From the NCBI GenBank assembly GCA_030998225.1, contig JAPYXD010000738.1, positions 1 through 64,000 on the forward strand: DNA of 64,000 nucleotides. The letters run 5' to 3'. Shown here one piece after another: positions 13,688 to 59,350 of the stretch. Every line of letters starts with the position of its first letter. Within the stretch, counting starts at the first letter, position 1. Made by a program: the position numbers and the translations under genes. This stretch comes from Diplolepis rosae. Its lineage: Eukaryota > Arthropoda > Insecta > Hymenoptera > Diplolepididae. The notes under the pieces were generated by a model. It did no database searches, was not told the DNA's origin, and saw only the letters and a list, made by a program, of their open reading frames with translations.

Positions 13688-13710
13688 TGCAGTAAGCCGA
13701 CCGAAGTTTA

Positions 13711-15260: not shown

Positions 15261-15419
15261 CGAAAGGCGGTTCCGCGGGCGGTGTATTGGTTCGAGAGAG
15301 GGGGTTTTTTGGTTTCAACAGGTATGCCTAGACCCGTACTAGGAGAGTCCTGTACAACGTCTATAAAAGATTTTGCCATTTTTCCTCCTCACCAAAAAAA
15401 TAAAAAAAAAAAAAAAACC

Positions 15420-16742: not shown

Positions 16743-18688
16743 ATGTATTCTCGTCTTCTCACCATGTTGTTTCTCTCCTGCGTCGCCTGGACCAGCACCA
16801 CAAGAGCAGAAACCCCGTATAAACATCTACAATTTGAAGCTAGCGCTGGGATGTACTATGAGCACCAGGGACCAGTAAGAAGAAGGATCAGTAACTGGAG
16901 AATTAACACATTTTTCCATGTCGAAAATCTTTATGACTCATTGGCCTACTATCAGCTGAAGATGAAAGCTTTAACCAAACACTGCCGTCCCAGGATGGAG
17001 GAAGAGTGTCAACGTATAGTTACCGATTACGATCTCCAACCAAAATTGGATGCAGCCAGTCGACTTCAAGATATAATTCATCAAGAGGTGGAGAATTTGG
17101 CATTTCAGTCTGCCAGAAAATTACCGATTAATCTACCAAGTGGTGTGAGGGCAACAAGAGCCACACCCATGTTAGGCTTCGTAGGAGGGATAGTCGGTCC
17201 AGTTGCAGGATTACTCACCTGTGAAGACAGAGTAATGATGGATTCCAAAATTGACGATCTAAATCAGGCTCAGGCGAACTTATCACATCTAGTTGGAACA
17301 CAAACTCATCTAGTTCGTTCCCAACTTGAACAGCTACATCAGACAGTCGAGGAACAGGAAGGTCAAATGTACGGGCTTAAATCTAAATTACTATCAAAAA
17401 TGGCTCATGCAAACGAGATAGCAACGTCCGTGTACCATATCACACTTACGTAGACGATCACTGCAGTCCTTCATTCTGTTGAGCAAAGAGTAGATGAATA
17501 CCTGAGGTCAGCCCACCAGCTTATAGACGTCGTATACGCAGCAAGGGACGGAAAATTACATCCCTCGCTTCTTACATCCCAACAACTCGAGCCAATATTC
17601 CGGGATATTCAAGACCATTCTCCAAAAACATCATTTCCGCTGTCAGGACCAAACATCAGTATTGAGAAGCTGACACAAATTTCTGAAACGATAATCGTCT
17701 GTAAGAATGGAACGTTCCAAGTAATTATTGACATTCCCTTGCTAGATGTAGCCGAATATACCTTATACGAAATGCACGCACTACCGGTGCACCAACCTAT
17801 TTTTGGAAACGGCACAGGAAGAGAATTCATCCAGAGACCAGTTACACATCTCGTCATCGAGGATACCAGACGCACGTATGTGCTTCTAACTCGTCCGAAT
17901 CGCGCAATCTGTAGGGATCTGCAAAACTATATAATGTGCCCAGGACTTTTCCCTATCTACGAGACGGCAACTTATCCTAGATGTGACTTACAACTGCTTT
18001 TGGATCCAACGCTCGCATATTTCAAATACTGCAACATCCAAGTTGCATCCAAATTGCATCCATATTGGCAAGCTATTCGTTCACTTAACGGCTGGCTCTA
18101 CTCTACGACCAAGGAGATCGGCGTGGAAATGAAGTGTATCATTAAGAAGACAATTAACATCAAGATCAATGGATTAGGACTTATCAGAATTCCACTAGGC
18201 TGCGAGCTGCGAACGAACTTGGCAACTCTACTTGGGCTAGAAACCATTTCCGGAACTTCTTTGATAGTCTATGAACCTAGCATTCATTTGGATTTGACCA
18301 AGTTATCTACAAAGTTTCACGACAATCTTCCGTGAGATTACCATTACCTACTTCTCCACCAACTCCACAAGATCAACGATACCAAGAAGGTGACAGGGCA
18401 CTCGACCAGCTGGAACAGCAGCTCTGTGACTTTAGCTTACAACGGCAAGAAAAGGCGAGTCATTCCAACCTGATATATGGATCCTATGCAGGGATTGGAT
18501 TGATAGCACTACTCTTTCTGGTGTACGCTTGTCATGCTAAAATCTTAATTGTTGCATCAACCTGCTGGACGTGTTGCCGTAGGAAGAAGTCTCGAACTTT
18601 GGGAGAACCGGACTCAGCTACGACACGGACTAGACAATCCAGAGACGCCTGCTTCGTCTCAGGATGTTTTAATACCTCTGTCAAATGA
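16743..18688 (+). pseudogene. Envelope-like gene of element B (baculovirus F-like), broken
   Basis: A protein with an N-terminal signal peptide (first about 22 residues, hydrophobic core LLTMLFLSCVAW), a glycine-rich hydrophobic segment around codon 145 resembling a fusion peptide, heptad-type coiled coil after it, and near the C-terminus a membrane segment (GIGLIALLFLVYAC) followed by a basic cytoplasmic tail. This order matches the envelope of errantiviruses, which is related to baculovirus F proteins. Breaks: a TAG at 17451-17453 with the same frame open afterwards to a TGA near 18335, and a frame change just before the membrane segment. In this state it cannot make a full envelope protein. 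Assignment rests on position after integrase and the domain order. Confidence 0.75.
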
Positions 18689-19160: not shown

Positions 19161-21110
19161 ACGCTTTCAGGAATTCAAGGCTAGGCAGCGAAAGGTATTT
19201 CCCCAGGAAATAGAGCTCAGAGGACGATTCCCCACAATAAATAAAATTAACAAAGTGATGTGAATTACTTTGGCTGTTTGGTTCCTCCGATGAGCAAACT
19301 AAGGCAATTACTTCTCATTCTTCTCTCGTAACACCTCTTTTCAGGTCGTTGAGTGGGATAGTTGCTTTTAAAAATTTTGGTTAAAATCAAAATTGCCCGC
19401 TCGTAAGACAATTTTGTATTATAACGATTTATCGTATTTTGTATACAATGATTTAAATGAAAAATGGAATTTAGATATTGATTTTTTTCAAGTTTTGACG
19501 TACTGTAACTATTCCTAATTTTAGTTTAATCAGAAAATGTTATGAGGATAATCAGTAAACATTTATTAACACTATCAAAAACCAGTATTGGAATTTTTGA
19601 TTTTTTCCAAAATACAAAAATGGTCTAGTTTTCTTAATTTTGGTTGGATGTGGCTGGTTACTTACTTACTTACTTCCCTTACTTTTTCGATTCTAGTTTT
19701 TTCTGAATTAGGGATTCTCGAAACGTTAAGATTTGATGAAAATTTTGAAAGTCATTTTTCACATGAAACTAATAATTTCTCATCCATGATGAGAATGTAA
19801 AAATCGTGCCTGCAACTCTACCTCCTCGGTGGTTTGGAAAGGAGTTTTTCCTATCAACACCTGATTACTCACGGGGAAAAACAGCTAGGGCCCCACCGCA
19901 ATCCAATTAAAATCTCTGTTGCCTAGAAATTGTAACTCATGATTCAAAATTTTCACCTCACGTTTTTGTGGCCTATGCATATAGATTTTTAATAAAAAAA
20001 TTGGAAAAATCTACGAAAATAAAGAATTTTCTGATTAAAATAGTTGACTAACAAAGCTACTAAATTTCCAATCAATACCTTAACTTGAAATTTTAAACAT
20101 TTATTGACTATGGAATTTTGTTGATACTTCAAAAACATTCGCCTAATATAAACATTTTTGAGATTATGTGAAATTCTTAGAAAATTCTTAGTAAAATTTA
20201 AAGTCAATAAATCTTTGAAGATTTGAATCAAGATATTAATTAAAACATGTTTCAAGCTTATAAATTTGATCAAGTGCATCAATTAGAAAATTTTGCCTTT
20301 GTGTAAAGAATTTCTTTTTTTCATTGAAAAGCTTATGCATATAAGCCACTAAAACGTTAAATGAGAGCATATTTACCTACTAACACCATTTCATTAGGAA
20401 ATTAGATTTTTAACCTTAATTTCTTATTTTTATTAAATAAAATATTTCTCACTAAATTTTTTAATTGATACAGTTGATTAACGTATTATAAAAAAATTTT
20501 TTAACTATTTTATTCGAACTAAATATTTTATATTTGTATTTTATATAAGAGCAATCGTAAAGTGTAATTTTGTATGTAAATTTATATGTCATTTTGGTTT
20601 TTTGAATACTGAAACCTTTTATTCACAGTTTTATAATGAAATTCATATGTGAATAATATTACGTATTTCAAAAAGTTTTCATAGTATTTTATGCGAATGA
20701 AATTTTTTTCAATGTTGCTTTATACCAGAGAAGAAACTCTACTGTATAATTTCGAGTGTATAATTAGATATAATTCATGTATTACTTAAGTATTATAATA
20801 TTTTATTTTTTAAACTCCAATAGTATATTTTAACATTCCTTAATATATAATATTCTTTAAATAATTTTATAACTGAATTATTTGATTTGCATAGCTAAAA
20901 AATATTGAAATTGATATTTTGTTTTGAAACTTTTGAAAATGTATTGACTTTAAATTTCAACAGTAAATGATTTTTTAAGTGTTTAAATCATCCTGAAATA
21001 TTGGATCTATAACTTAATTCGTGCGGTTTGCTAAGAGATGGCATAACTTGATTATTATTCCATCGTTCCAATATTCCGAACATGCGTTGGAAAGCTACTG
21101 TCATTGTGCG
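19161..21110. other. AT-rich DNA without recognisable gene
   Basis: Composition is very AT-rich. Only short chance frames are present, including one that happens to encode hydrophobic residues near 19600. I see no repeat structure or element ends here. Confidence 0.5.
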
Positions 21111-24412: not shown

Positions 24413-25675
24413 TCATTTTTCTTTTGCCTTTATGAGGTTTTCTCTTGCTTGTGTTTGCATTTCATGCAGTTGTGTGACGAAGTTGATCAAATAATCACCA
24501 TAGGTTTGCAATTTTTCATTTTGTGATAGAGGTTCACTAGATGGTTCACGGGCTAATTTGCCTAACACTAATTCGTAAGGCGTACATTTTGTGGCTTCGT
24601 GTACACTTGTGTTATATGAGAACATTGCTAATTCTAGCCAATCGTCCCATTCTGAGTTTTTTGCTACAAATTGTTTGAGATATTCACCTAAGACATGATG
24701 TGATCGTTCAAGTGATCCATTGGATTGAGGGTGAAAAGCTGTGGTACGAAATTGTTTGATTCTAAAGCGTTTTGCTAGTCTTTTTAATAAATTGCTCAAA
24801 AAATCTCTGCCTTGATCCGTTAGTACTCCTTTTGGTGATCCAAATATGCAAATAAATTTTTTGACGAACGCGTCTGCTATTGTACCAGCTTGATGATTAG
24901 GAAGGTGTATTGCTAGAGAGTATTTTGTAAAATTGTCTTGTATAGTAAGAATATACAGATTTCCAGACATTGTTTCTGGTAGTGGACCAACAATATCCAT
25001 TGATATTTTTTCGAAGGCAGTAGTGGGTGTATCAGTAATAACCATAGGATTTTTGGTTTTAACCCGAACTAATTTTTTTATTTGGCATTGTAAACAGCCT
25101 TGAATATACATTTGAATATCGACTTTCATATTTTCCCAAAAAAATTGTTGGCGAATTCGATTATAGGTCTTTGTGACGCCTTTATGGCCTCCTAATGCTG
25201 AGGAGTGTGCTTCTTCAATTAATTGTGATCTTTGTTCTTTTGTTGGATATTGCGTTATGCCATTACAAACTATTATTTTTGTAAGTGAATTTGCAACAAC
25301 TAAATTAAATACTAATTTTATTTCTTCCCAAGCTATATGGTTGATTTTTGAAGTCTTTGAAATACTAATTGATCGTAAATTCAATTTTTGAGATAATTCG
25401 TGTAATGAATAAATTGACAATTTTATATTACTCAAGGTTTCAGATAAATTGTCTTGAATTTCTCCTTCAATCGGAAGAGCAAAATGATAATAGTTTCCTT
25501 TTTTAATTTCTTTCGCTGTTCCCTTCTGTAAGTTTTTAAATTTTGGTAAGGTTCCACGTTTTTCTAGACTTTTTGATCCATTATCTCGAGGATTTCCATT
25601 TATTGTAACAAAATATACATAATTATCTTTTCGCATCGTTAATTGATCGCGACATTCAACGATATTTTTATTCAT
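24413..25675 (-). CDS. Integrase of element C, catalytic residues intact
   Basis: A 420-residue open frame. The HHCC zinc domain at about residues 155-200 reads EEAHSSALGGHKGVTKTYN and YIQGCLQCQIKK. The core has ISMDIVGPLPE (D), VLTDQGRDFLSNLLKRL (D) and HPQSNGSLERSHHVLGEYLK (E), then WLELAMFSYNTSVHEATKCT. The first 150 residues are a less conserved extension. DDE residues and the zinc ligands are all present, so the domain itself looks functional apart from its detached C-terminal end. It inserts cDNA into host chromatin. Confidence 0.9.
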   Translation of the reverse strand: MNKNIVECRDQLTMRKDNYVYFVTINGNPRDNGSKSLEKRGTLPKFKNLQKGTAKEIKKGNYYHFALPIEGEIQDNLSETLSNIKLSIYSLHELSQKLNLRSISISKTSKINHIAWEEIKLVFNLVVANSLTKIIVCNGITQYPTKEQRSQLIEEAHSSALGGHKGVTKTYNRIRQQFFWENMKVDIQMYIQGCLQCQIKKLVRVKTKNPMVITDTPTTAFEKISMDIVGPLPETMSGNLYILTIQDNFTKYSLAIHLPNHQAGTIADAFVKKFICIFGSPKGVLTDQGRDFLSNLLKRLAKRFRIKQFRTTAFHPQSNGSLERSHHVLGEYLKQFVAKNSEWDDWLELAMFSYNTSVHEATKCTPYELVLGKLAREPSSEPLSQNEKLQTYGDYLINFVTQLHEMQTQARENLIKAKEK

Positions 25676-26031
25676 TAAAATTTGCCTGGTAGATTTTGAG
25701 TTGAGTGGAGGGGGTTCTGGGGTGGATGGTTTTCTTCGAATTCTGAATTAGTATAATTTTCGAGATTTTCCCTGGTTTCTATTTGTCGATTTTTGTTTAT
25801 TTCAGAATTTCGTTCATTAAAAATGTCTTCGATATTTTCATTTTCAAAAATTTCTTCAATACAAGATCTTTCAGAGCTCTCTTCATCTTCAGGTTTCATA
25901 TCACTTACTTCGTCTTCAAAAGTAGAAAAATAATTTTCGCTTTTTTCCTCTTGAGGTATAATAAATTGTTTAAGCTTTTTGCCATTTTTATTTCTTTTAT
26001 TTTTTGCTTGGATTTCCTTTAAATAGTCCAA
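25675..26031 (-). CDS. Acidic linker segment of the element C pol
   Basis: 118 residues starting MDYLKEIQAKNKRNKNGKKL, then strongly acidic (EDEESSERSCIEEIFENENI). It overlaps the RT-RNase H frame by 13 bp and meets the integrase frame at 25675, so one polyprotein was probably split by small indels. No domain is recognised. It lies between the AT-hook region and integrase. Confidence 0.55.
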   Translation of the reverse strand: MDYLKEIQAKNKRNKNGKKLKQFIIPQEEKSENYFSTFEDEVSDMKPEDEESSERSCIEEIFENENIEDIFNERNSEINKNRQIETRENLENYTNSEFEENHPPQNPLHSTQNLPGKF

Positions 26032-27584
26032 AATTCAGGATCAGAATCAGGAGCAGAGTCGGAATCTGATTTTACTTTTGTTCGGCTTCCTTTTTGCGTA
26101 TTTATTTCTGGTAATTCATTTTCATATATTTGTTTTCTTGGTCTACCTCTCTTTCTTTTTGTTTGAGAGGGAATAATTTTTAAATTGGTAAGTAGATTTT
26201 CTCTTGGCCTACCTCGAGGTTTTTTCACAAGAGGTTTAGAAGAAAAATTTTCGTCTAATTCTTCTTGGATTTTATTTTGATTTAAATTTTCTAGATTTTT
26301 ATGCTGATTTGAATTTTTCAGTTGTTCTTGTTTTTTCTTTTTACCCCTAGTAGTCATGGTTTTCCATGGCGAATTTTCATAATTTTTTCCAAATATTGGA
26401 CTTAAGAGTATAATAGTCATAAACAGAAGCTTTGATGCTAAAAGTTTCAATAAACTTGTATATTTCAGAAAATTGTTACAAATGTTATTAAATAATTCTT
26501 CATTGGGAGAAGCATTAAAAGTTTCTAAAAATATTGGATCTTGTGAGGATTCACTAAAGTCAATTATATCATCTTGGGTAAATATCGAATTGAAATATTC
26601 TCTTTTAGAATTATTTCCTTTTTTGATATTATTTTCTTCGTTATTTTTTATAAAAGCATTCTCAAGATTCAGTTTTTCTTGAGATGTCATGAAGGAATCG
26701 TCATCATCTTCGTGTAAATTTCTTGATCTTTCTTCATTAATAATAGGGTTTCTTGAAAGAGCGTCTGCATTGACATTCATTTTTCCTGCTTTGTATACAA
26801 CATCAAAATCATATTCAGCGAGTTTTAACCTCCAGCGCGAAACTCGTGAGCAAGCGTCCTTAGAATTTTGAAACCAAACTAGTGGTTTATGATCGGTTAC
26901 TAGGGTAAATTTTCTTCCATATAAATAAGGACGGAAATGAGTGACACAAAATATTATTACAAGTGCTTCTTTTTCATATGTGTCATATTTTTTCTCGGCG
27001 TCACTTAAACTCCGTGAAGCATATGCTATTGGCTTATTTTTGCCAATTTTACCTTGTGATAATATACCTCCTATTGCGTATCCTGAGGCATCTGTTGTGA
27101 GAACAAAGGGTTGAGAAAAATCGGGTCGTTGTAAAAGTGGTTCTTCACATAATCTTGATTTTAAAAAATCAAAAGCTGTTTGCTGTTTATCGGTCCATAT
27201 GAAAGGGGTATCCTTTTTTAGAAGTTGATTAAGAGGATTGGCAATTTTTGAAAATCCTTCGATAAATCTACGATAATATCCTGCTAATCCTAAAAATTGT
27301 TTGACATTCTTTTGTGTTTTTGGAACTGGAAATTCTTTTACGGCTATTATTTTTTTGGGGTCCGGTCGAACTCCATTTTTATCAATTATATGACCTAAAT
27401 ATCCTATCTCAGGTCGTAAAAATTCACATTTGTCTGGTTGTAAATGAAGGTTTGCTTTTCGAAGACGTTGTATTAGATTATTAAATTTTTTCTCATGTTC
27501 TTCTAGTGTATAAGCAAATATGACTATGTCATCAAGATATACAAAGAGTTCTGTCCCTATTAATCCAGTTAAAGTAATATCCAT
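26019..27584 (-). CDS. RT C-terminal half, RNase H and AT-hook linker of element C
   Basis: 521 residues. The RT part has ELFVYLDDIVIF (catalytic DD intact), KCEFLRPEIGYLGHIIDKNG and KQFLGLAGYYRRFIEGFSKI. RNase H has LTTDASGYAIGGIL, YDTYEKEALVIIFCVTHFRP and TLVTDHKPLVWF with the D-E-D residues in place, ending YKAGKMNVNADALSRN. The remaining 240 residues are a polar linker containing two AT-hook cores, KKPRGRPRENLL and KRKRGRPRKQ, at about 26201-26216 and 26132-26149. AT-hooks bind the minor groove of AT-rich DNA, so they could tether the integration complex to AT-rich chromatin (inference). The frame joins the RT N-terminal half with one frame change near 27600. Confidence 0.9.
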   Translation of the reverse strand: MDITLTGLIGTELFVYLDDIVIFAYTLEEHEKKFNNLIQRLRKANLHLQPDKCEFLRPEIGYLGHIIDKNGVRPDPKKIIAVKEFPVPKTQKNVKQFLGLAGYYRRFIEGFSKIANPLNQLLKKDTPFIWTDKQQTAFDFLKSRLCEEPLLQRPDFSQPFVLTTDASGYAIGGILSQGKIGKNKPIAYASRSLSDAEKKYDTYEKEALVIIFCVTHFRPYLYGRKFTLVTDHKPLVWFQNSKDACSRVSRWRLKLAEYDFDVVYKAGKMNVNADALSRNPIINEERSRNLHEDDDDSFMTSQEKLNLENAFIKNNEENNIKKGNNSKREYFNSIFTQDDIIDFSESSQDPIFLETFNASPNEELFNNICNNFLKYTSLLKLLASKLLFMTIILLSPIFGKNYENSPWKTMTTRGKKKKQEQLKNSNQHKNLENLNQNKIQEELDENFSSKPLVKKPRGRPRENLLTNLKIIPSQTKRKRGRPRKQIYENELPEINTQKGSRTKVKSDSDSAPDSDPEFWTI

Positions 27585-27613
27585 TAATCTTTGAAATGTT
27601 GCCGGGGCGCTTT

Positions 27614-28042
27614 TTAACCAAAGGGCATTCTATCAAATTCATAATGGCCATGAGGTGTAGAAAATGCAGTTTTATGAGAGTCTTTAGGGTCCATTTTTAT
27701 ATGGTGAAAACCAGTAGCTAAATCGAATACTGAAAAATATCTGGAAGATCCGAGTGAATCGAGTATATCATTTATGTTAGGTAGTGGGTAAGAATCTCCG
27801 ATTGTTTTTTCATTAAGTTTTCTGAAGTCAAGAACCATTCGCCATTTTATTTTACCTATAGAGTCTGGTTTTTTAGGAACAATCCAAACTGGAGTGTTAT
27901 ACGGTGATTGTGAAGGTTTTATTATTTTATTTTTTAATAATTCGTCAACTTGTTTTGTAATTTCTTCTTTATGAACAGGGGGAAATCTATATTGTCTTGA
28001 AAAAATTGGAGAATCATCTGTAGTTGGAATTGAATGTTGCAA
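27614..28042 (-). CDS. RT N-terminal half of element C
   Basis: 142 residues with KNKIIKPSQSPYNTPVWIVP, WRMVLDFRKLNEKTIGDSYP, YFSVFDLATGFHHIKMDPKD (first catalytic D) and HYEFDRMPFG, where it stops. The next residues continue after a frame change at 27590-27612, near a run of five A on the coding strand. With the following segment it makes a complete palm domain. Confidence 0.9.
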   Translation of the reverse strand: MQHSIPTTDDSPIFSRQYRFPPVHKEEITKQVDELLKNKIIKPSQSPYNTPVWIVPKKPDSIGKIKWRMVLDFRKLNEKTIGDSYPLPNINDILDSLGSSRYFSVFDLATGFHHIKMDPKDSHKTAFSTPHGHYEFDRMPFG

Positions 28043-28102
28043 AACGTTAGTAGCTTCAAGTGGTTCTCCTGGGATTTGAAATCTGTCTGCACTGTTAATA
28101 AT

Positions 28103-28318
28103 TTATCTTTCTACATGTTCGTATTCGTCTTGATTCAAATGATCCAAATGAAGAAGTTTTTTGATGCATTCTATTCTTTCTTCACCTGTTATATTAAAAA
28201 ATCTGCATGGATTGTTGAAAAAATTGTCGGTTTTTAAGAAGCTATTCAGAATTTGGTTAGATAAATTTACGGAATTTTGTTTAATCAAATTACGACCAGC
28301 ACCGGTATCTATCATCAT
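28103..28318 (-). pseudogene. Protease region of element C
   Basis: Contains MMIDTGAGRNLIKQNSV, the retropepsin DTGA active site with the following N-L-I-K found in errantivirus-like elements. It ends at a TAA near 28100, with the same frame open beyond it into the RT start, so a single nonsense change separates protease from RT. Confidence 0.75.
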
Positions 28319-28437
28319 CCGAGCAGGGCTTTGAAGACCGTCTGCGCATATCTTTATCGATGGAATTATACTTGGTTTGGAAACGCTTATCTTTATAGCC
28401 GGTTGATCGTTAAAAGTGGATGCTTCTGGTTCTTGCC

Positions 28438-29258
28438 TTACGCTTTCCTCAGTGCATCCGTACTGGGGAGAGAGTTTGAGTTTTCCGAATTTTGCGATTG
28501 TTGTTTATTTAATCTAATGTTACAATTTCTTATAATATGTCCTGGTTTTTTACAATAGTTGCATATAACTTCTGGTTTTTGTGGATAATTTTGATTTGCT
28601 CTACTTAATTGCTGATTTCGCATTTCACGTTGGCTATTTTGATTTAGAAATTGTCTGTGATTTGCATACCTGTTGTGATCTAGATTGTCTTGTCTATTAT
28701 CATTATTTCTGTTTTTCGAAAAATTATTATTATTGTAATTATGGAATCTATTGCTGTTAGGATAATTATTTCTGTCACTTGAAAAGTTATTGTAATTGTT
28801 GTTCCTGTTCCTCGAAAAATTGTTATTCGGATAATTGTTTTGTGCAAAGTTATTATTATCATAATTGTTATTTCTGTTTCCTAAAAAATGGTTATTCCGG
28901 TAACTATTTCTTGCAGAATTATTGTAAATATTTTCTCGTCGTTGGTGATTATTACTAGGCTGTTGATTTTGCATAACAAAACTAGTATTTTGTTTTCTGG
29001 AAACTGCTTCTTGTGCTTTGGTTAAATGATAACAATTTTCAGCAACATGACCTGGTTTTTTTTACATATTATACAATTTATGTTGTTATCTCGTGCAACA
29101 TTGAACCGAGTTGTTTTATTATTTCTATTATTTATAGAATCATCCATTTTTAAATAATCTGAATTTTTATTTCTCCGAAGTGCAGATGATGCTGCCAAAT
29201 CTCTTTCTACGTTGATTGTGTCATTGAAAACTTCTTCAAATGTTCCCTTTGTTTTTAC
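28438..29258 (-). pseudogene. gag nucleocapsid region with N/R-rich repeats, element C
   Basis: Two zinc knuckles are visible: CIICKKPGHVAENC (about 29035-29080, separated by a frame change at a run of eight T) and CNYCKKPGHIIRNC (about 28510-28560). Between them lies a low-complexity stretch of repeated N, R, F and Y residues (NNYDNNNF, NYPNNNFSRNRNNN type), about 28630-28930. Zinc knuckles bind the genomic RNA. The N/R-rich part is unusual and may promote RNA condensation (inference). Upstream it connects to the capsid frame after one stop near 29259. Confidence 0.75.
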
Positions 29259-30353
29259 TCAAATTGCTAATTCAGGACGCAGACCGCGAATAAAGCATTG
29301 AATAACGTCTTTTTGACGATTTCGTTTTAAGGGATTATCTACTTGTCCATTATTGTAGAGTCTATGAGCGTCTTCGATTCTGTCGGCAATCTCCTTAATT
29401 CTGGCTGCATAGGAAAGTACGTTCTCTTTTTCCCACATATAGGTATTCCCTAATTCTCCTTGTAACTGATACACACTTTTTGCTGGGGCGTATACTCTTT
29501 TGAGTTTCTCAATTAATTCCTCCATATTATTATAAGTCGATCCAAAGATACATTTTCTCGCTTCTCCTGATAATTTACTTCGCAATAATCGTCCTAAATT
29601 TTCTTGAGCTGCGGGTGTTGGCAGCATTGCCTTTGCCTCATAACATCCTTCAATAAAATGAGATGATGGAATGTTACTTCCATCAAATAAGGGTACTACT
29701 TCTAACGCGTCGCGTAAAGATACTTGTTGATTATTAGGTAGGACCATTTCGTTGTTTCTAATTGGATTAACGTTTTCTGCAGGATTTTTGTGAACAATTT
29801 GTTCCATTTGTTCGTTGTCGGTACTATTATCGTCGCTATCGTTATTACTTAAAACTGTTTGGCGTTTAAGAGAGTTTTCTGATAAATTTATTTTAATTCT
29901 TTCGTCGACTGTGTTTTTTGGAATTATCGTTGAACTAAGTAAACTTATATCTTCGTTGTCAATATAAGTAGTTCCGTTTTTTAATGTTTCGTCCTGATCA
30001 ATTGATCCACAAATAATACTTGAATTAGTTTTTGAACTTGAATTAAGCCAATTATTCGAATGAGATAAATTGCTTGTTCCGGCAGTTTCGAATTGTTCAA
30101 ACGTTAAGGTTTTCTCTAAAGTAACATTATCTAATTGCAAACTGATATTTGTTTTGTCCTTGTTGAAAATATTTTCAAAATTATCTTTAGTTACCTTTTT
30201 CTTTACAGTAACTGTTCTTTTTGGTTTAAGGGGACCAGTTTGATTTTGTGCCACAATTTTTGCAAGTTCAGTATTTTTCTTCACTTGACTGCGCGTAATA
30301 GGATTTTCTTGAATTTGTGATTTCCCTAATCCACTGGGATTGGGTCCCGACAT
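29259..30353 (-). CDS. gag N-terminal and capsid part of element C
   Basis: 364 residues beginning MSGPNPSGLGKSQIQENPIT. The first 200 residues are polar and basic; a capsid core follows, with LRDALEVVPLFDGSNIPSSH, LLRSKLSGEARKCIFGSTYN, VYQLQGELGNTYMWEKENVL and DVIQCFIRGLRPELAI. This matches the errantivirus-type gag family. It ends at a stop near 29259, after which the same kind of sequence continues as the nucleocapsid. Confidence 0.85.
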   Translation of the reverse strand: MSGPNPSGLGKSQIQENPITRSQVKKNTELAKIVAQNQTGPLKPKRTVTVKKKVTKDNFENIFNKDKTNISLQLDNVTLEKTLTFEQFETAGTSNLSHSNNWLNSSSKTNSSIICGSIDQDETLKNGTTYIDNEDISLLSSTIIPKNTVDERIKINLSENSLKRQTVLSNNDSDDNSTDNEQMEQIVHKNPAENVNPIRNNEMVLPNNQQVSLRDALEVVPLFDGSNIPSSHFIEGCYEAKAMLPTPAAQENLGRLLRSKLSGEARKCIFGSTYNNMEELIEKLKRVYAPAKSVYQLQGELGNTYMWEKENVLSYAARIKEIADRIEDAHRLYNNGQVDNPLKRNRQKDVIQCFIRGLRPELAI

Positions 30354-31592
30354 AGGTTATTATAAAATAAATTTTACTGATACGTACATGGAGATACTTT
30401 TAAAATTGCAATACATGAATATTAATTTGGATCAACAGAACATTTTTTCAAATATCTTTCGTTTTAAAATATTTTGTAATGAATAAATGTGATTAATAAT
30501 ATGTTATTAGAAAATATGAATTGTCGCAATGTTCCGAGTCAGGTAAATTTATAATCATCAATCAAAATTCTTAAAATAATATACCTTAATTCTACCAATT
30601 TCCATGTGCTTACAGAAAAAATATTTATTTAGAATTTTTTGTTTCAAATTTATTCTTATTGAAACTAATTTTGTTCCTTGTCTTACCTGGGATACTTGAT
30701 ATGTTTTTTTTTTATATAATTGTCGAATGGTATAGGTCATAAATGGGTTTTAAATAATTGTTACACTCACAAAAAAAAATTTTGTTATATTTTTTATTAT
30801 ACACACATAAACAAAATTATAAATTATACAGAATTTAATTAATGCAAGATTGGGCAAGCCTGACTCAAGCACAACATCTTGGTCAATCTTTTGTAATTAA
30901 AAATATTCTGTTAGTTAACAGAGTTAAAACAAAAGTTTCAAACGATACTGTATGAGCACTTGAATTTTGCCTTACCCAATTGATCGTCATCAAATGGTGA
31001 CCGTTCAACGAATCTGAAAAGGGCTTATAGTCTCTTGTGCTGCTTTTTCTCGTTTTAACTCGAATTAAAACTTAGTCAACAATTTAGAATTAAAGAAGTA
31101 CGAGATTAGACAGGCATGACTCAAGCACAAAATCCTATGTAATCTCTGCACTTTCAGAAATTCCGATAATAAAATTTCAAATAAAATAAGTCTTTTGATC
31201 ACTTAGGTTAGCCTCAAGGTCAAATCCCTGCGTGAATCAACAGAATTTATTTTATTTTAACACTGTTTGTACAAAATAACTAGAAATAAGGAAATTAAAC
31301 AGTTTTTCAAATAAAATAATTATATAATCACTTAGGTTAGCCTCAAGGTCAGATCCCTTTGTGATTTGATAAAATTATTTTATTTTAACAAGATATGTGT
31401 ATAAAATTTCAAATAAAATAAAATGATTATTCAATCACTCAAGTTAGCCTCAAGGTCAAATTCTTTCGTGATTTTATCAAATTTATTTTATTTTAACAAA
31501 ACGTTGTGAAATCATATAAATTATAATTGTACTTTATCAAGTTTTGATTTATAGTAATTATAAAATTTAAATATCCCATTCACTGACTAAGT
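30354..31592 (-). other. Leader of element C between primer-binding site and gag
   Basis: About 1.2 kb without a coding frame. It contains three repeats at 31168-31500 and a repeated GACTCAAGCACAA phrase (near 30860 and 31110). A stretch near 30980-31110 resembles 47025-47125 next to a mariner copy. Long leaders with repeated protein-binding sites are known in the Drosophila gypsy element. Confidence 0.55.
31168..31500. repeat. Three leader repeats, each with TCAAGGTCA
   Basis: Each unit has CAAATAAAATA, then ACTYARGTTAGCCTCAAGGTCA, then GTGATTT and TTATTTTATTTTAAC. TCAAGGTCA lies at 31214-31222, 31343-31351 and 31450-31458 (spacing 129 and 107 bp). The flanking AATAAAATA and TATTTTATT form an inverted pair. 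TCAAGGTCA matches the known monomer site of FTZ-F1/ERR nuclear receptors; binding here is inferred. Confidence 0.7.
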
Positions 31593-36512: not shown

Positions 36513-36520
36513 TCACAGAC
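36513..36520. repeat. 8-bp target-site duplication, left
   Basis: TCACAGAC directly before the CAGTGTGTCC end; identical to 42632-42639. Confidence 0.9.
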
Positions 36521-38945
36521 CAGTGTGTCCAGATTTGACACGCGAACGTTACGCACACAACGCCAACAGCAGTACGTACGTGAGAATGGTTGCGGGCGCA
36601 GCGTAGTGTGTCTGCTGTTCGCAGTGGTTCTCTGAGTTTTCTCTGTTTGAAGGCTCCTTGTACCTACAGCTGAAATTGCGTGCGCGAGGAATCACATGTA
36701 CGCACTGTTAGCTAAAGTTGTGTAAGTTAGATTGCTATATGAAACTCAACAGTGTGTAGGAGCACTGCTTACAAAATACAAATTGACAGCTTGCTCGGTT
36801 TTCATGTTTCTTTCGACTCTGCTGGATTGCGTGCAAAAGAGGCGCGAAAGAGATGCCGCATTTGAAATGACGGAAGATATAATTTGAAAACTTAACCCTT
36901 AAATCAAAATTTTATGATGTGTAAAATCTTTTACATGATAGTTTTAATAAACAAGTGTTAATTAAGGGGTTCAATATTTAAGCAAGTTAATAATTTATAT
37001 TCTAATTCACATACGAAATTACAATTACTAAACAATTTTTTTGTATGAACTTGATTCGACAAACCTTTACTATTGAGTAAAATACTTTAAATACCATTTT
37101 TTGAAATACATAACATCTTTTACGTGACAATTTCAATATATAAGTGTAAACAAAAGGTTTCTTTTTTTTTTTTTTTGATGATGATGAATAAATTATATTT
37201 ACATTTTCATACGAAATTACTCATTGTGATTCTTTGTTATTAAGTAAAAGTGACAAATATTATAAAAATGAAATACTTTTAAAAAAAGTTTTAGAATACT
37301 TAAAAATTTGTATATGACAATTTTAATGTATAAATGTAAATGAAAGGTGTGATTATTAAAAAAAGCCAATTAAGGCCATGGACCAACCTGGTCACGTGAC
37401 TAGATTCCTACTTTACCGGCATTTAAGTTTGTGTAACCCCATTTCTATAAAAATTGAGAAAAGTAACTGAAAATTTGTAGAATCAAATAAAATACATTAT
37501 TATAGGTCTCTCTGGTCATAAATGTTCATAATTATGAAAAGAATTTTCTTTGCAAACATTTTTTTTTTATAATTATAAACATTTATAACCAGACAGACTT
37601 GCCTTTGTGCATTCCATTTACTCTCACAAATTATCAACTTATTATCTCATTTTTTACAGAAATGGGGTTACACAAATGGAAAATGATGATAAGGTAGGAA
37701 TCTAATCACGTGATCCGGTTGGTCCATGGCCTTAATTATATCTGAATTCGCATGCGAAACTACAAATTGAGATTCCTTTGGTATGAAGATAATTCGACAA
37801 AGTTTTACTGTAAATTAAAATACTTTAAATAATTTTTTTGAAATACGTAAAAATCGTTTAAAAGATAATTTTAGTATATGCACTGCCATAAAAAATTACA
37901 GGTTCACTTGTACTTTTATCTACTGCTAAAGCATCTTCATTTTTATAATAAAATGTGATGTAAAAGATTTGAGCTATTCCACAAATTTTTAATGATATTT
38001 TATTCGAAATAAATATTTTTCCACTTCATATCAGAGAAATCTCAACATGTAATTTAGTATTCAAATTTAAATATAATATATTTGATATTTGAAGAATCAA
38101 ACTATTTATTCACACTTGGATATTCTCTAAATAATTTATATCCAAATACAATATAATTCATTTTTGAATAATCAAATATTTTATTTACATTTATTTGATG
38201 AAATTGTCATGTAAAAGGTTTTAAGTATTCTAAAAACTTTTTTGAGGTCCTTTATTCTAAAGGAAATTTTTTGAAATTTATTTCTTACTAGACAAATTTT
38301 AAATTTTAATTTCTTATGCAAAATTAAACATGTTTTTTAATTTTTTATATAATCAAATCTCTTATTCACACTTGTATATTAGAATTTTCTAAAAATTATT
38401 TTGGATAAATAAAAAATTTTGTTTCCAAATAATTGATTATTGAATTTGTAAAATTTATTTTATATTATAAAACTCCTCAGATGCAATTTCATATGAACTT
38501 TCAGCAGATATTGCGTGCGCGAAAGTTGTGTAAGTTTGATCGCTATATGAAATCGAAGCGTATATTAAAGAACTTCTTAAAAATTGACAGCATGCTCAGA
38601 TTTTATGTTTTTCTCGATTCTATACAAAAAAGGCGCGAAAGAGACGCCAAATTTGAAACATATTATTTGAAAAATTAACCAAATACGTGTTTTACTTTCT
38701 TAAAGTAATGAAAAAATTAATTTAAAAAATATGATATAATTACTACTGGAAAGGTACACTATCTTCTGTGCTTAAATTTCGTTTCAAATCTTTTTTCATA
38801 AAATCGCTTTTTCACCAAAATAGCATTATTCTCTCAATTTAAGGAGGTTCGACCGTGACTAGGAAGCCCTTGGAAAACTTGACTAATTCCCAGTTTAAAA
38901 AATCTGAATGCTGTTATCCTATGCATAATATTAGAGAAAAATGTT
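36521..38945. repeat. Left arm of the giant inverted repeat
   Basis: Inverted copy of 40205-42631. The first 400 bp are GC-balanced with several CGCACGCAA/TTGCGTGCG phrases; the rest is AT-rich. It contains a nested TTAA-flanked MITE. An 81-codon frame at 38433-38678 has a mirror copy in the other arm and no known domain. Confidence 0.9.
37370..37735. mobile_element. TTAA-flanked MITE inside the left arm
   Basis: The element GGCCATGGACCAACC...GGTTGGTCCATGGCC, 358 bp (37374-37731), is flanked on both sides by TTAA. The arms are inverted copies of about 150 bp, including TGTGTAACCCCATTTCT. A TTAA duplication points to piggyBac or Kolobok-type mobilisation. Confidence 0.8.
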
Positions 38946-39270
38946 TGCGCATTGAATTTAATAGAAAAATCAGCAATTTTTAAACATGTATTGATGCCAA
39001 TAGTAAAAGAAACCGTTAATTAAATTATGAAAGGGAGACATCTCGATGGAAAATTTGAGATCGGGTCTATATAGTGAACCTATCTTGGTCGCCAGTCGTT
39101 CAAGATTGGGATATTTTAATTTTTAAATCTGCTTTGTAAATAAATGTGATCATAATTTTCTAACATAAAAAAATCACTAATGTTTCATTCATAGAAATAA
39201 ATTTTTGAATAAAAGATTAAAACATATTTTATGTGAAAAATCAATTTTTAAAATTTAAAAATTTTTTATG

Positions 39271-39777
39271 TTCTTAGCTGGCTTTAGGGTCCAGAAAAAA
39301 TGTATCTCAAAGTTTCATATTTTCAAACGTTTCGACTCAGATTGGAGTCCTCATCAGTGAGAATTTACTTCTATAAAAAGAATACAGGAAGAAACTTAAA
39401 AATTGCCCCTGTGACGGATAAACATTGTGGTAAAAACGATATAAATGAATTGTACATGTATAACCATGAAATTGGTCTAAATAACTAAATTTACAAAAAT
39501 TAAAACTACAAAAAAATTTTTTCTGTAAAAATACTGTGGGGAGAATCTTCCAAAATAGCACTATTTAGGCAGTTTTTACAGCTTTCACACGTACACACAC
39601 GTTACATCGATTGTTACCACAATGTTTATTCGCCACACAGGCAATTTTTAAGTTGTTTCCTTTGTATTTTTTATAGAAATAAATTCTCACTCATGAGGAC
39701 TTCAATCTGAGTCGAAACGTTTGAAAGTATGAAACTTTGAGTTACATTTTTTCTGGACCCTAAAGCCAACTAAGGAC
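39271..39777. mobile_element. Nested foldback element in the centre of the giant palindrome
   Basis: The left arm 39271-39442 and right arm 39608-39777 are inverted copies (TTCTTAGCTGGCTTTAGGGT at the left end). They include the phrase CAAACGTTTCGACTCAGATT. The central spacer is about 165 bp. A shorter relative with the same ends lies at 56888-57000. Confidence 0.75.
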
Positions 39778-39902
39778 ATCAACAATTTTTGAATATTAAT
39801 ACTAAGGGTCGATATAAGTTCTGTTCATTATTAATTTTTAGATCAATCAAATATTAATATTTTATATATGAAGAAATTTGAAAATCTTTCTGAGGAAAAA
39901 AG

Positions 39903-39960
39903 ACGCTTTCGACTGCGCTGGGATTCGAGCCCAAGTCTTTCGATTGCCGATCGACTGCTC
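39903..39960 (-). other. tRNA-like or SINE-like fragment
   Basis: The minus strand has GGGCTCGAATCCCAG, which matches a T-arm/Pol III B-box, preceded by GATCGGCAATCGAAAGACT, which could be an anticodon-arm remnant. The 5' half and the A-box are not evident. It is not a functional tRNA. Confidence 0.3.
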
Positions 39961-40204
39961 GTTAAAAAATTATGATTAAATTGATACAAAATTTTAAATT
40001 GAGATGTATGAAATTTCATAGTTTAATTAATAGTTTCTTTTACTGTTGACGTAAGTAAATTTTTGAAAATTTCTGATGTGTCTATCAAATTCGATGTGCT
40101 AATTGAATTAGTGAAAAATGTACAAATTTGAGGAGGCTCAACCTATCGTAATTGGTACTAGAAAGGACATTTTTTATATTTTCTAATTTTGTCTCGGTAA
40201 AGCG

Positions 40205-42631
40205 AACATTTTTCTCTAATATTATGCATAGCATAACAGCATTCAGATTTTTTAAACTGGGAATTAGTCAAGTTTTCCAAGGGCTTCCTAGTCACGGTCG
40301 AACCTCCTTAAATTGAGAGAATAATGCTATTTTGGTGAAAAAGCGATTTTATGAAAAAAGATTTGAAACGAAATTTAAGCACAGAAGATAGTGTACCTTT
40401 CCAGTAGTAATTATATCATATTTTTTAAATTAATTTTTTCATTACTTTAAGAAAGTAAAACACGTATTTGGTTAATTTTTCAAATAATATGTTTCAAATT
40501 TGGCGTCTCTTTCGCGCCTTTTTTGTATAGAATCGAGAAAAACATCAAATCTGAGCATGCTGTCAATTTTTAAGAAGTTCTTTAATATACGCTTCGATTT
40601 CATATAGCGATCAAACTTACACAACTTTCGCGCACGCAATATCTGCTGAAAGTTCATATGAAATTGCATCTGAGGAGTTTTATAATATAAAATAAATTTT
40701 ACAAATTCAATAATCAATTATTTGGAAACAAAATTTTTTATTTATCCAAAATTATTTTTAGAAAATTCTAATATACAAGTGTGAATAAGAGATTTGATTA
40801 TATAAAAAATTAAAAAACATGTTTAATTTTGCATAAGAAATTAAAGTTTAAAATTTGTCTAGTAAGAAATAAATTTCAAAAAATTTCCTTTAGAATAAAG
40901 GACCTCAAAAAAGTTTTTAGAATACTTAAAACCTTTTACATGACAATTTCATCAAATAAATGTAAATAAAATATTTGATTATTCAAAAATGAATTATATT
41001 GTATTTGGATATAAATTATTTAGAGAATATCCAAGTGTGAATAAATAGTTTGATTCTTTAAATATCAAATATATTATATTTAAATTTGAATACTAAATTA
41101 CATGTTGAGATTTCTCTGATATGAAGTGGAAAAATATTTATTTCGAATAAAATATCATTAAAAATTTGTGGAATAGCTCAAATCTTTTACATCACATTTT
41201 ATTATGAAAATGAAGATGCTTTAGCAGTAGATAAAAGTACAAGTGAACCTGTAATTTTTTATGGCAGTGCGTATACTAAAATTATCTTTTAAACGATTTT
41301 TACGTATTTCAAAAAAATTATTTAAAGTATTTTAATTTACAGTAAAACTTTGTCGAATTATCTTCATACCAAAGGAATCTCAATTTGTAGTTTCGCATGC
41401 GAATTCAGATATAATTAAGGCCATGGACCAACCGGATCACGTGATTAGATTCCTACCTTATCATCATTTTCCATTTGTGTAACCCCATTTCTGTAAAAAA
41501 TGAGATAATAAGTTGATAATTTGTGAGAGTAAATGGAATGCACAAAGGCAAGTCTGTCTGGTTATAAATGTTTATAATTATAAAAAAAAAATGTTTGCAA
41601 AGAAAATTCTTTTCATAATTATGAACATTTATGACCAGAGAGACCTATAATAATGTATTTTATTTGATTCTACAAATTTTCAGTTACTTTTCTCAATTTT
41701 TATAGAAATGGGGTTACACAAACTTAAATGCCGGTAAAGTAGGAATCTAGTCACGTGACCAGGTTGGTCCATGGCCTTAATTGGCTTTTTTTAATAATCA
41801 CACCTTTCATTTACATTTATACATTAAAATTGTCATATACAAATTTTTAAGTATTCTAAAACTTTTTTTAAAAGTATTTCATTTTTATAATATTTGTCAC
41901 TTTTACTTAATAACAAAGAATCACAATGAGTAATTTCGTATGAAAATGTAAATATAATTTATTCATCATCATCAAAAAAAAAAAAAAAAAGAAACCTTTT
42001 GTTTACACTTATATATTGAAATTGTCACGTAAAAGATGTTATGTATTTCAAAAAATGGTATTTAAAGTATTTTACTCAATAGTAAAGGTTTGTCGAATCA
42101 AGTTCATACAAAAAAATTGTTTAGTAATTGTAATTTCGTATGTGAATTAGAATATAAATTATTAACTTGCTTAAATATTGAACCCCTTAATTAACACTTG
42201 TTTATTAAAACTATCATGTAAAAGATTTTACACATCATAAAATTTTGATTTAAGGGTTAAGTTTTCAAATTATATCTTCCGTCATTTCAAATGCGGCATC
42301 TCTTTCGCGCCTCTTTTGCACGCAATCCAGCAGAGTCGAAAGAAACATAAAAACCGAGCAAGCTGTCGATTTGTATTTTGTAAGCAGTGCTCCTACACAC
42401 TGTTGAGTTTCATATAGCAATCTAACTTACACAACTTTAGCTAACAGTGCGTACATGTGATTCCTCGCGCACGCAATTTCAGCTGTAGGTACAAGGAGCC
42501 TTCAAACAGAGAAAACTCAGAGAACCACTGCGAACAGCAGACACACTACGCTGCGCCCGCAACCATTCTCACGTACGTACTGCTGTTGGCGTTGTGTGCG
42601 TAACGTTCGCGTGTCAAATCTGGACACACTG
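40205..42631. repeat. Right arm of the giant inverted repeat
   Basis: Inverted copy of the left arm, differing in scattered single bases (for example near 42358 and 42370). It contains the mirror copy of the TTAA MITE. Confidence 0.9.
41415..41780. mobile_element. Mirror copy of the TTAA-flanked MITE in the right arm
   Basis: Same 358-bp element (41419-41776), TTAA on both sides, in the mirrored position. It was either inserted before the arms were duplicated or copied by gene conversion. Confidence 0.8.
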
Positions 42632-42639
42632 TCACAGAC
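42632..42639. repeat. 8-bp target-site duplication, right
   Basis: TCACAGAC directly after the right end GGACACACTG of the giant foldback element. Confidence 0.9.
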
Positions 42640-42671: not shown

Positions 42672-43320
42672 TTACACCTCTTAAATCAATACTGCAAAAA
42701 ATTTATTAATATATTCTTGTACTTAATTCACCAGGAATACATTTCCACATTTCGAAATATTCTTTACGTGGTATTTAGAGACGGCAATAATCATTGAAAT
42801 CTGTATAACTCTAACCTCTAGGAATAAAATATTTTTTATGTGTCCTAAATCACTACCGCAAAAAAATGTATTGAAATATTCTTAAAGACGATTATTCCTT
42901 TTTGGAATATACTAAATTTGGTATGTTATTGGCATCTTGTTGACATTTTACTGGTATAAAGTCGACGCACTTACGATAGATTTACCCATTTCAAAATATA
43001 TTGGGTGGTATTTAAGGACTGCAATAATTATTGAAATCTGTTTAACCCTAATTGACAGGCATAAAATATTTTCTATTTTTCTTCGCTTGATACTGCAGAA
43101 AATGTATTAAAATATTCTTGAAATCGAATTATATAATTATATATTTATAATTTATAATATAGATATATTTTACTTGGTATTCAAAGTCGGCAATAATTAT
43201 TTAAATTTGTCTGACCCTAACTTCTGGAAACGAAGTCTTTTCTAATTCCCTTAAATTGATATTGCAATAAAATCCATTAAAATATTCTTGAAGTCGACCT
43301 ATTTGTACATCATAATCACG
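42672..43320. repeat. Satellite array, about 166-bp unit (array 1)
   Basis: About four diverged units carrying AATATTCTTGAAGTCGAC, then CATTTC.AAATAT, then GGTATTTA.AGACGGCAATAAT, then ATAAAATATTTTCTA and TCGATATTG. The same unit forms the arrays at 51.2-53.6 kb. Confidence 0.75.
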
Positions 43321-51239: not shown

Positions 51240-51955
51240 TGTAAATACTGCAAAAAAAAATGTGTTGAAATATCCTTAAAGTTGACTCATGAAAGATGCA
51301 TCACCATATTTTGAAATATACTATGCGTAGTATCCAGACCAGGTAATAATTATTCAAATCTGTAGAACCCTAGCCGCCAGACATGAAATATTTTCTAAAT
51401 CCCTTAAATCGATATTCTACTAAACATCTATTTGAATATTCTAGAAGTCGACTCATTAAAGATGCATTTCCACATTATGAAATATATTTTGCATGGTATT
51501 TAGACACGGCAATAACTATCAAAATATGTTTAATCCCAACCTCCGGGCATGAAATATATCATATTTCTCTTGAATTGATACTGCATAAAGATTTGTTAGA
51601 ATATCGTTAAAGTCGACTTATATACAATACATTACCATATTTCATAATATATTTTACTTGGCATTCAGAGCCGGCAATAATTATTCAAATCTGCTGAACT
51701 CTATCCGCAAGGTATGAAATATTTTCTAAATCCCTTAAATCGATATTGTAATAAAAATTTATTTGAATATTCTAGAAGTCGACTAATTTAAGATACATTT
51801 CCACATTTCGAAACATATTTTACGTTGTATTTGCAGACGGCAAGGATTATTGAAATGTGTTTAACTCTCACCTCGAGGCATGAAATATATTATATTTCTC
51901 TTGAATCGATACTGTAAAAAAAATGTATTAGAGTATTCTTAAAATCGACTTATTA
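51240..51955. repeat. Satellite array, about 166-bp unit (array 2)
   Basis: The phrase AAGTCGACT or a variant occurs at about 51279, 51447, 51611, 51777 and 51944, giving spacings of 164-168 bp. Units vary by roughly a fifth. A unit near nucleosome length is common for centromeric or pericentromeric satellites; location is inferred. Confidence 0.8.
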
Positions 51956-52400
51956 AGGTACTAGTACACTTTAGAAGGCTAAAAATAAGGCAATTTTGAA
52001 TGATTTTTTTCTCAGTCCCATTGATATATATTTATATGAAACTTTTTTTATCATGTAAATACATGTTTGTGGAGTACAAACAAATTTTTATTTAAAATTT
52101 TTGTTTTATGGCCCAAATCCAGGGAGCGCCAAAACCGAACATCAAAAAAAAAATTTGACGCACGGTCGACAGTTTATCTCTGGATCGGCAAGTCTGAAAC
52201 AAAAAAATGAAATGGTTTCTCTGAAAGGAAGGTTGCTTACGTGACAATTCATCACATTTTTAAAAAAATTAAGAAAAAAAATGGCGGGCGTTTGAAAAAT
52301 TCATTGAAAAAATGGCCTATTTTTCCGCTGTTTTTTGGGTCAATAAAATATTAAATTTGTATTTTTTGGCTTAATTGCGGTAAATTGTCATACAGGACAT
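51956..52400. other. Non-satellite insertion in the array
   Basis: About 440 bp interrupt the satellite after GACTTATTAAGG. It has no coding frame. The satellite resumes at about 52400 with GGTATTTACAGACGG. Element ends not recognised. Confidence 0.5.
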
Positions 52401-53102: not shown

Positions 53103-53640
53103 TAAATCGATATTGTAATAACAGACTATTTAAGTATTCTAGAAGTCGACTCATTATAGATACATCACCATATTTCGAAATATTTTTTTCGTAGTATTTA
53201 GAGGCGGCAATAATTATTCAAATCTGTCTAATCCCATCCGCCAGGCGTGAAATATTTTCTAATTCCCTTGAATCGATATTGTAATAAAAATCCACATGAA
53301 TATGCATAAAGTCGACTCATTATAGATGCATTTCCACATTTCAAAATATGATTCACGCGGTATTTATAGACTGCAATAATTATTGAATTGTGTTGAACCT
53401 TAACCTCCGGGCCTGAAATAATTTCTAATTGCCTTCAATCGATATTATAAAAAAATGTATTGGGAGGTTCTTGAAATTGACTCAGGATACATTTTCACAT
53501 TTTAAAATATATTTTACTTTATGTTTAGAGACGGCCATATATATTGAAATATTCCGAACCCCAACCACCAGGCATGAATTATTTCCTGATTTCTATAAAT
53601 CTATATTGTAATAAAAATCTATTTGAATATTCTTGATGTT
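53103..53640. repeat. Satellite array, about 166-bp unit (array 3)
   Basis: About three units with AGAAGTCGACTCATTATAGA, GGCAATAATTATT and TCGATATTGTAATAAAAATC. It continues array 2 after the insertions and stops abruptly at 53640. Confidence 0.75.
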
Positions 53641-56887: not shown

Positions 56888-57000
56888 TTAATATTCAAAT
56901 ATTGTTGGTGTTTCAGTTGGCTTTAGGGTCCAGAAAAAATGTAACTCAATTTTCTGGACCCTAAAGCCAACTAAGAACATCAACAATATTTGAATATTAA
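56888..57000. mobile_element. Minimal foldback element, 113 bp
   Basis: Almost a pure palindrome: TTAATATTCAAATATTGTTG at the left and its inverted copy at the right, with TTGGCTTTAGGGTCCAGAAA in both arms. It is a shortened relative of the nested foldback at 39271-39777, with which it shares about 35 bp of end and about 50 bp of right flank. Confidence 0.75.
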
Positions 57001-57385
57001 TACTAAGGGTCGATATAAGTCTTGTTTCATTATTATTACTAATAAACTTATTTTAAACAGGTATACTTTGATCACAAATGTTTCTTATTATGTATGAACA
57101 CAGTCTTTGTTTCTTTTGATTGTCACAACTTAGTCAAATGTTAATACAAACAATTTTTGGTACGAATACATTTAAATCACTTTGGTTATCACAGCCTATG
57201 CTGCTTCAACAACTTGATCAGCTTCAATTTCAACAGAATTGCCTTTTTATAAACAAACAGCATGCAACTTATATTTGAAATACGCTTTTTTTAAAGCAGT
57301 TAACATTGTAGCAATAAATACATTATCTCTTTCAACTCTTAAATAAAATATTCTTTTCTTTTCAGCCAGGTGGCGAGATCCGGGA

Positions 57386-58500: not shown

Positions 58501-59350
58501 GTATCCTAATTTCCCTGACTTTTCCCTGACTTTTCCCTGACCAAAATCTATTGTAAGAGGACTCATCTCTGTGGAACTATATTCCTATAATAGAATATTT
58601 GCGTGTTTTTCCCTGTTATTTTTCAACAGAGAGGATGTTAAATAAGAGAAGGTAAGATAATGAATTGGCGTGCCTTTTGTGCTTTTTTCGCGCGGAGTCA
58701 GGAAAAACATACATAATTTTACCAATTCAACAATTTTAAATAGTTATAGCACAAAATTTTTGCAAATTTAGTAGATATTTTAATACAATTCACCGCTTTT
58801 TGGAAAGTATAATACATTTGCTGATAATCATTACCAAAATGCAAGTAAAATTAATAAAATAAGCAATTTTCTTCAAAATGTTGATTTTAACAGGCATTTC
58901 CGTAATATTTATCGACAAAACTATTATTTAAACAAAATTTGTTTCAAAGCATTTTATTCAAACGAAACAGTCTTCAACTTTACTTTATAGCAGAGAAATC
59001 TCATGATGTAATTTCGTATCCAAATTCAGGCATGATTTCTTTTTAAACAATGATAACTTTTATTCGCACTTGGGATTCGAAAACGACATTTCATAAAAAA
59101 TGTTACATATTTCAGTCAGTAGTGGGGGCCGAAAAGTTCCACGATCTGAGAACACTTTTGCTAGCCTGTGTCTGCTGCGGCGAGTTAACCGAGCAAGAAG
59201 GAAGAAGAGTTGGAAGAACTGACCGCGGCACAGTGAAAAGCAGTAACGCACGATCTGGCCAAAGCGATTCCCTGACTAAACCTTAAATTCCCTGACTTTT
59301 CCCTGACTTTTCCAGACCACTACGATTTCCCTGACTTTTCCCTGACTTCC
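58501..59350. mobile_element. Insertion flanked by TTCCCTGACTT repeats
   Basis: Interrupts the R1-clade ORF2 between the endonuclease and the region before RT. Both edges consist of several direct copies of TTCCCTGACTT (58512-58541 and 59289-59357). The inside is AT-rich with a GC patch near 59130-59260 and no coding domain. Confidence 0.55.

Follow-up and report, generated by a model that had tools for sequence, protein, structure and literature searches.

A miniature inverted-repeat transposable element in both arms of a palindromic foldback transposon of Diplolepis rosae points to templated copying between the arms

How foldback transposons hold kilobases of inverted arm near-identical is an open point in the passages of the papers cited here. 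The question is raised by a 6.1-kb palindrome at positions 36521-42631 of the first 64,000 nucleotides of contig JAPYXD010000738.1 of Diplolepis rosae (assembly GCA_030998225.1), a stretch referred to below, at its full length, as the window. A first-pass annotation made from the letters alone had described two arms of 2425 and 2427 bp with few differences, identical ends and an exact 8-bp duplication at both flanks, and comparison of the arms together with a search for the ends confirmed this description. The palindrome carries a foreign miniature inverted-repeat transposable element (MITE) in both of its arms and, in our judgement, is very probably a non-autonomous foldback of a CAGTG-ended, 8-bp-duplicating superfamily (hAT or P) whose arms were homogenised by templated copying. 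Genome-wide counts refer to the 757.7-Mb assembly that holds the window, and statements about published systems draw on passages of the papers cited.

The same MITE at mirrored positions in both arms

The features on which the argument turns are as follows.

36513..36520, unstranded: left copy of the 8-bp target-site duplication TCACAGAC (flank comparison)
36521..38945, plus strand: left inverted arm, 2425 bp (repeat search, arm comparison, BLAST)
37374..37731, plus strand: foreign foldback MITE of 358 bp in the left arm, with TTAA duplicated at 37370-37373 and 37732-37735
40205..42631, minus strand: right inverted arm, 2427 bp (repeat search, arm comparison, BLAST)
41419..41776, minus strand: the same MITE at the mirror position in the right arm, with TTAA at 41415-41418 and 41777-41780
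42632..42639, unstranded: right copy of the target-site duplication TCACAGAC (flank comparison)

Direct comparison of the arms gave nine substitutions, at 36784, 36803, 37879, 37944, 38091, 38304, 38397, 38604 and 38918, and one 2-bp indel, a poly-T length difference after 37161. The BLAST identity of the arms was 99.5% across 2430 columns, and two long inverted pairs were scored as 100% complementary after rounding in the repeat search. Apart from TCACAGAC, the left flank of the palindrome is unlike the right flank.

The 358-bp MITE, a feature that goes beyond the first-pass annotation, as do the spacer foldback MITE and the ~190-bp AT-rich sub-repeats described below, was placed by repeat search and BLAST at 37368-37737, with its mirror image at 41413-41782. 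Across the 362 bp used as query, the two window copies do not differ, and the next copies elsewhere reach at most 99%. The MITE family is dispersed, with at least 86 matches from 40 scored candidates, the nearest at 99%. Genome-wide, the exact filled junction of arm and MITE has two matches, one per arm of the window copy, and a third match with 2 mismatches lies at C373:8032344. The empty site, by comparison, was found 219 times (120 + 99; at most 2 mismatches; control 0), and the other aligned arms (30/30) all have a single TTAA at a precisely empty site. Among the 20 copies first fetched, none gave a MITE match of at least 100 bits. Around the MITE, the two arms are identical from 37162 to 37878.

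Thus, a MITE found in no other compared arm sits, mirrored, in both arms of this copy. The restriction of the exact filled junction to these two arms, against 219 empty sites, indicates that one arm templated the other, and insertion into one arm followed by templated copying to the other is the only reading we found that requires no coincidence. A foreign insert in both arms of one copy only is a direct mark of a copying event, for which the other copies act as controls in the form of empty sites, one-arm inserts and a chimera. Among the papers listed in searches on foldbacks and arm conversion, none was seen to describe a foreign insert passed by copying from one transposon arm to the other.

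A dispersed family of palindromic elements with common ends

Membership of the element in a wider family was followed through its arms and ends.

36521..36540, plus strand: left terminal 20 bp CAGTGTGTCCAGATTTGACA, with 879 genome matches at up to 2 mismatches
42612..42631, minus strand: right terminal 20 bp, the same as the left (end search)
36521..36661, plus strand: end of ~141 bp common to the 280-bp palindromic MITEs L059 and L060 (94-96% identity over 128-141 bp)

The 20-bp end occurs in the window at the two termini only (up to 3 mismatches; 0 expected by shuffling) and in the genome at 455 + 424 = 879 places (up to 2 mismatches; control 0), the first 100 listed of which are all exact. 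With the left arm as query, at least 238 matches were obtained from 40 scored candidates, the first look having given 5991. The annotation had called inverted arms of this length rare, a statement that finds no support in this genome, where the family has ~219 arm sites. With these and ends at 879 places, the tract length, rate and bias of gene conversion in a palindrome become measurable.

Twenty loci from the arm search were read, together with 11 further elements reached via arm or end matches. Both ends could be read in 20 elements, the window copy included, and 16 of these carry an exact 8-bp target-site duplication, two (L045, L056) a duplication with one mismatch, and two (L037, L084) no matching duplication; the count excludes copies without two readable ends (L036, L042-L044, L046, L048-L054). 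The annotation had named, as evidence against itself, other copies with different ends and no 8-bp duplication. The 19 other elements, all selected by these ends, comprise 15 with exact duplications, 2 with one mismatch and 2 with none, so such copies were mostly not encountered. Flanks of different copies gave no match in the comparison made, the sole match being between the left and right sides of L039.

Family members measure 280 bp, then 0.4, 0.5, 1.7, 3.6, 4.2-4.6, 4.9 and 5.1-5.3 kb, and up to 6.1 kb, and 20 of the 29 neighbouring pairs less than 7 kb apart among the first 100 ends listed span 269-281 bp. L059 and L060 are near-perfect 280-bp palindromes built of the same 128-141-bp end and flanked by exact 8-bp duplications. 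All four short palindromic elements read (L059-L062, 280-531 bp) have exact duplications, as a MITE family sharing the ends of the foldback should. These results show that palindromic elements of 280 bp to 6.1 kb form one family, with common ends and 8-bp duplications at insertion. The features by which foldback (FB-type) elements are recognised are present, namely long inverted arms, a small or absent unique middle, internal sub-repeats and, in the set of 20 elements, dispersed copies with target-site duplications. The element is a new family of an already known kind, in which copying from arm to arm has left an unusually clear trace. Five 17-mer matches to the end in viral contigs were discarded, as none extends past 17-19 bp, and a literature search for the end sequence returned unrelated subjects only, among the matches listed.

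Open frames that lie inside the element or overlap it are at most 84 codons long. A Pfam scan of 10 of the 56 frames of at least 40 codons gave no match reaching the cut-off, four of the ten having one weak match each below it (E 0.019-0.2). Seven frames in or overlapping the spacer had no match at the curated cut-off, and an Rfam scan gave no match. Because no frame is longer than 84 codons and the Pfam matches all fall below the cut-off, this copy encodes no recognisable transposase; it is a non-autonomous member of a real foldback/MITE family. The mobile, non-autonomous foldback proposed in the annotation is in this respect upheld by the dispersed ends, the target-site duplications and the short frames.

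Similarity of the two arms within and between copies

Given the marked copying event in the window copy, the arms of the other copies were compared over their outer 851 bp, using only arms that cover at least 700 bp (L041, L042, L046, L054 and L057 have none or one), and over a longer alignment in which pairs with fewer than 900 shared columns were skipped. In the outer 851 bp, the median divergence was 0.77% within copies and 3.27% between copies (766 pairs), and 0 of 2000 random pairings reached the within-copy median. A copy's own arms were clearly nearest to each other in 8 of the 14 two-arm copies, with three ties and three copies in which they were not nearest (L037, L039, L040); among the ties, L038 and L055 were nearer by a hair, giving a strict count of 10/14, and L083 was equal. 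Sister arms were recovered in the tree for 9 of the 14 copies.

In the window copy, the arms differ from each other at 8 sites over 1798 columns, and the nearest other arm is 2.1% off. In the set of 32 aligned arms, fourteen sites are private to this copy, and both of its arms share them. When the 8 differences were polarised, 4 were changes in the left arm and 2 in the right arm, 1 site had changed in both and 1 was unclear. By this count, the last homogenisation would be younger than most of the private history of this copy.

Several observations weigh against homogenisation as a general rule or limit how far it can be pressed. The private sites are so defined against 32 arms rather than the full 219 sites, and for both arms the assembly is accepted as it stands. 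Only 5 of the 10 copies with two arms in the longer alignment (the window copy, L038, L042, L045 and L047) have their own arms nearest to each other, and sister arms are found in 6 of 11. One arm of each of L037, L039, L040, L041 and L046 is nearer to an arm of another copy than to its partner, and L038, L045 and L046 have one-arm indels. L041 (4945-5700) and L046 (4547-5303) hold the same 756-bp insert in one arm only; its two copies align with 754 positions identical, 2 different and 1 gap, and the compared flanks of L041 and L046 are unrelated, the right flanks among them (the left flank of L046 lay outside the comparison). A 190-codon frame of this insert has a DUF4817 helix-turn-helix domain, and the insert is probably another transposon.

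The two copies with no matching duplication differ in their arms. L037 has arms 3.0% apart in the outer 851 bp and a foreign nearest neighbour, but the longer alignment groups its arms as sisters. Ectopic exchange or a rearrangement breakpoint is likely for this copy, which is probably a two-copy chimera of the kind reported for Galileo (PMC3573991). The arms of L084 are sisters, as if a chimera had been homogenised afterwards. Taken together, arm homogenisation in this family is frequent but not universal, and occasional in its action. Since the arms are homogenised at least in part, arm identity does not date an insertion, a caution that applies to foldback elements of this kind. The annotation had inferred that the element moved recently; arm identity falls away as evidence for this, and the intact duplication alone argues for youth. 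The annotation also proposed that the palindrome, if transcribed, may be a source of long double-stranded RNA or siRNA.

Origin of the arm identity

In the proposed mechanism, a transposase supplied in trans would cut and paste the element through the common ends. The MITE would first have landed in one arm and then been written, together with neighbouring sequence, into the second arm by templated copying, most likely gene conversion at a cruciform or following a break. The same copying, taking place now and then, would keep the arms of many copies alike. It is improbable, in our view, that the palindrome of this copy was instead rebuilt in one event from a single arm by fold-back synthesis, template switching or inverted duplication during repair or transposition. 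Such an event would likewise place the MITE and the 14 private positions in both arms, and L085, with 0 arm differences in 841 bp, is a copy that it would suit. The two-arm copies read are, however, palindromes of one arm design, for which rebuilding is unneeded. The insert common to one arm of L041 and of L046, between unrelated flanks, indicates that a one-arm insert can outlast transposition, which argues against rebuilding of the palindrome each time unless the insert was exchanged between copies. Rebuilding and gene conversion are both forms of inter-arm copying and differ only in extent.

Explanations that dispense with copying fare worse. TTAA elements such as piggyBac can excise precisely, so the MITE might have been ancestral and lost cleanly from all other arms, or it might have inserted independently in both. 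Independent insertion would require the same TTAA, mirrored orientation, identical sequence and a second landing in the partner arm among ~220, and ancestry would require ~219 precise losses with two retentions, although the MITE is 99% like its nearest relatives. We give these routes almost no credence and rejected them on the coincidences required. An assembly artefact in which one arm is represented twice is also very improbable: long palindromes are hard to assemble and this one is judged from the assembly alone, but its arms differ at nine sites and one indel spread along 2.4 kb, the same 8-bp duplication stands at both ends between different flanks, and other copies in the same assembly retain arm differences of up to 3%. 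Templated copying between arms is accordingly the reading that we retain. It is conceivable, if doubtful, that inverted arms act as a self-repair device, in which each arm templates the other and both transposase-binding ends stay functional when other transposons have long decayed. A foreign element landing in an arm would be doubled as a side effect, and a MITE would multiply by host gene conversion without a transposase of its own.

hAT or P superfamily

CAGTG-type ends with 8-bp duplications are typical of hAT elements, and the annotation had called the element hAT-like on this basis. A hAT-driven element has, in our estimate, close to an even chance. At least 150 hAT dimerisation domains are present in the genome (150/150 scored candidates; 1155 at first look). 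When the 20-bp terminal sequence was sought in the 1.2 kb downstream of 20 of the 150 listed domains, however, 0 of 20 hAT transposase 3' ends carried it; the best matches near the domains were 11-14 of 20 positions, and shuffles of one such stretch gave 10-14. hAT target consensuses are nTnnnnAn or nnnTAnnn, and 18 target sites of the family showed no clear motif of either form.

A foldback driven by a P element, as Galileo is, appears possible at somewhat below even chance. P elements and P-MITEs make 8-bp duplications (PMC1562414), the Galileo foldback belongs to the P superfamily (PMC4168063), and the duplication found here is of the 8-bp (or 7-bp) length given for P in the cited parts of both papers. 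At least 150 P-type RNase-H domains were found (150/150 scored candidates), many in long open frames. Position on contigs weighs against both assignments: on contigs up to C157 and with 100 of the 879 ends listed, a listed exact end lies on the same contig as 23 of 34 hAT domains, at 14.7 kb or more, and as 27 of 36 P domains, at 4.1 kb or more, the nearest P domain standing beside the complete foldback L057; both counts leave out the domains of C169. The 8-bp duplication on which the annotation relied therefore stands but is not specific to hAT, as P elements share it (PMC1562414), and a hAT transposase with the same ends did not appear among the 20 ends read. The superfamily may be hAT or P. 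Several P-superfamily transposase frames exceed 1000 codons, some with identical scores, and the number of long, in part equal-scoring frames suggests recent P-element activity.

Comparison with known foldback and palindrome systems

Galileo of Drosophila resembles this family in its long inverted arms with internal repeats, its non-autonomous size classes and its chimeric copies without matching duplications, to which L037 may be compared (PMC3573991, PMC4168063). Its duplications, as given in the same papers, are mostly 7 bp rather than 8 bp. In D. mojavensis, Galileo F copies are described as having two terminal inverted repeats (TIRs) with independently varying repeat numbers (PMC3573991), whereas about half or more of the copies in the present family have homogenised arms.

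Tetris of Drosophila virilis is likewise a non-autonomous foldback with no coding capacity, with ~220-bp tandem arm repeats, ends common to a MITE (DAIBAM) and duplications of 8-10 bp, and homogenisation has been suggested for its TIR-220 repeats (PMC4079207). The authors of that paper assign it to Mutator; the present family is distinguished by 8-bp duplications and by inter-arm copying marked by a foreign insert. The Mutator/foldback family Tm1 of root-knot nematodes also combines foldback-type and MITE-like members, one copy holding a nested inverted-repeat element, but makes 9-bp duplications, and the identity of its TIR pairs averages 93.15% (PMC3169594), compared to a median near 99.2% here (outer 851 bp, gaps omitted). 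The inverted arms of sex-chromosome palindromes are kept alike by intrachromosomal conversion, as described in the cited part of PMC7023750. Unlike the dispersed transposon described here, each of those palindromes is one structure on a chromosome, in willow a 200-kb region.

Internal repeats, spacer and surroundings

The remaining features of the element lie in the arms and in the spacer between them.

36711..36897, plus strand: sub-terminal domain, with a diverged copy in the same arm at 38519-38680 (69.5%)
36902..38424, plus strand: AT-rich stretch of diverged ~190-bp sub-repeats in both orientations (self-comparison)
38946..40204, plus strand: spacer, 1259 bp, whose outer part prolongs the palindrome at 77-80%
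39248..39799, unstranded: second foldback MITE, inside the spacer, with arms 78-88% alike (two measures)

Outside the palindrome, 20495-20691 and 58951-59073 are 72-76% like the AT-rich sub-repeats of the arm and, judged by this similarity, are possibly dispersed relatives of the arm repeat. Fragments of the spacer foldback MITE turn up again at 56888-57035. Orientation of the spacer was considered as proof of recombination and dropped, since a palindromic element inserted either way round looks alike.

The window is packed with other transposons. The right flank of the palindrome runs into 166-bp satellite units, which lie at 42680-43300, 51245-51961 and 53143-53456. Remains of a Gypsy-type retroelement occupy 11408-18335 on the plus strand, and the frame at 16722-17450 within them weakly matches Baculovirus F protein, narrowly missing the curated cut-off (E 3e-5). 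A second Gypsy-type element, with long open frames, one of which was scanned, lies at 24413-30356 on the minus strand.

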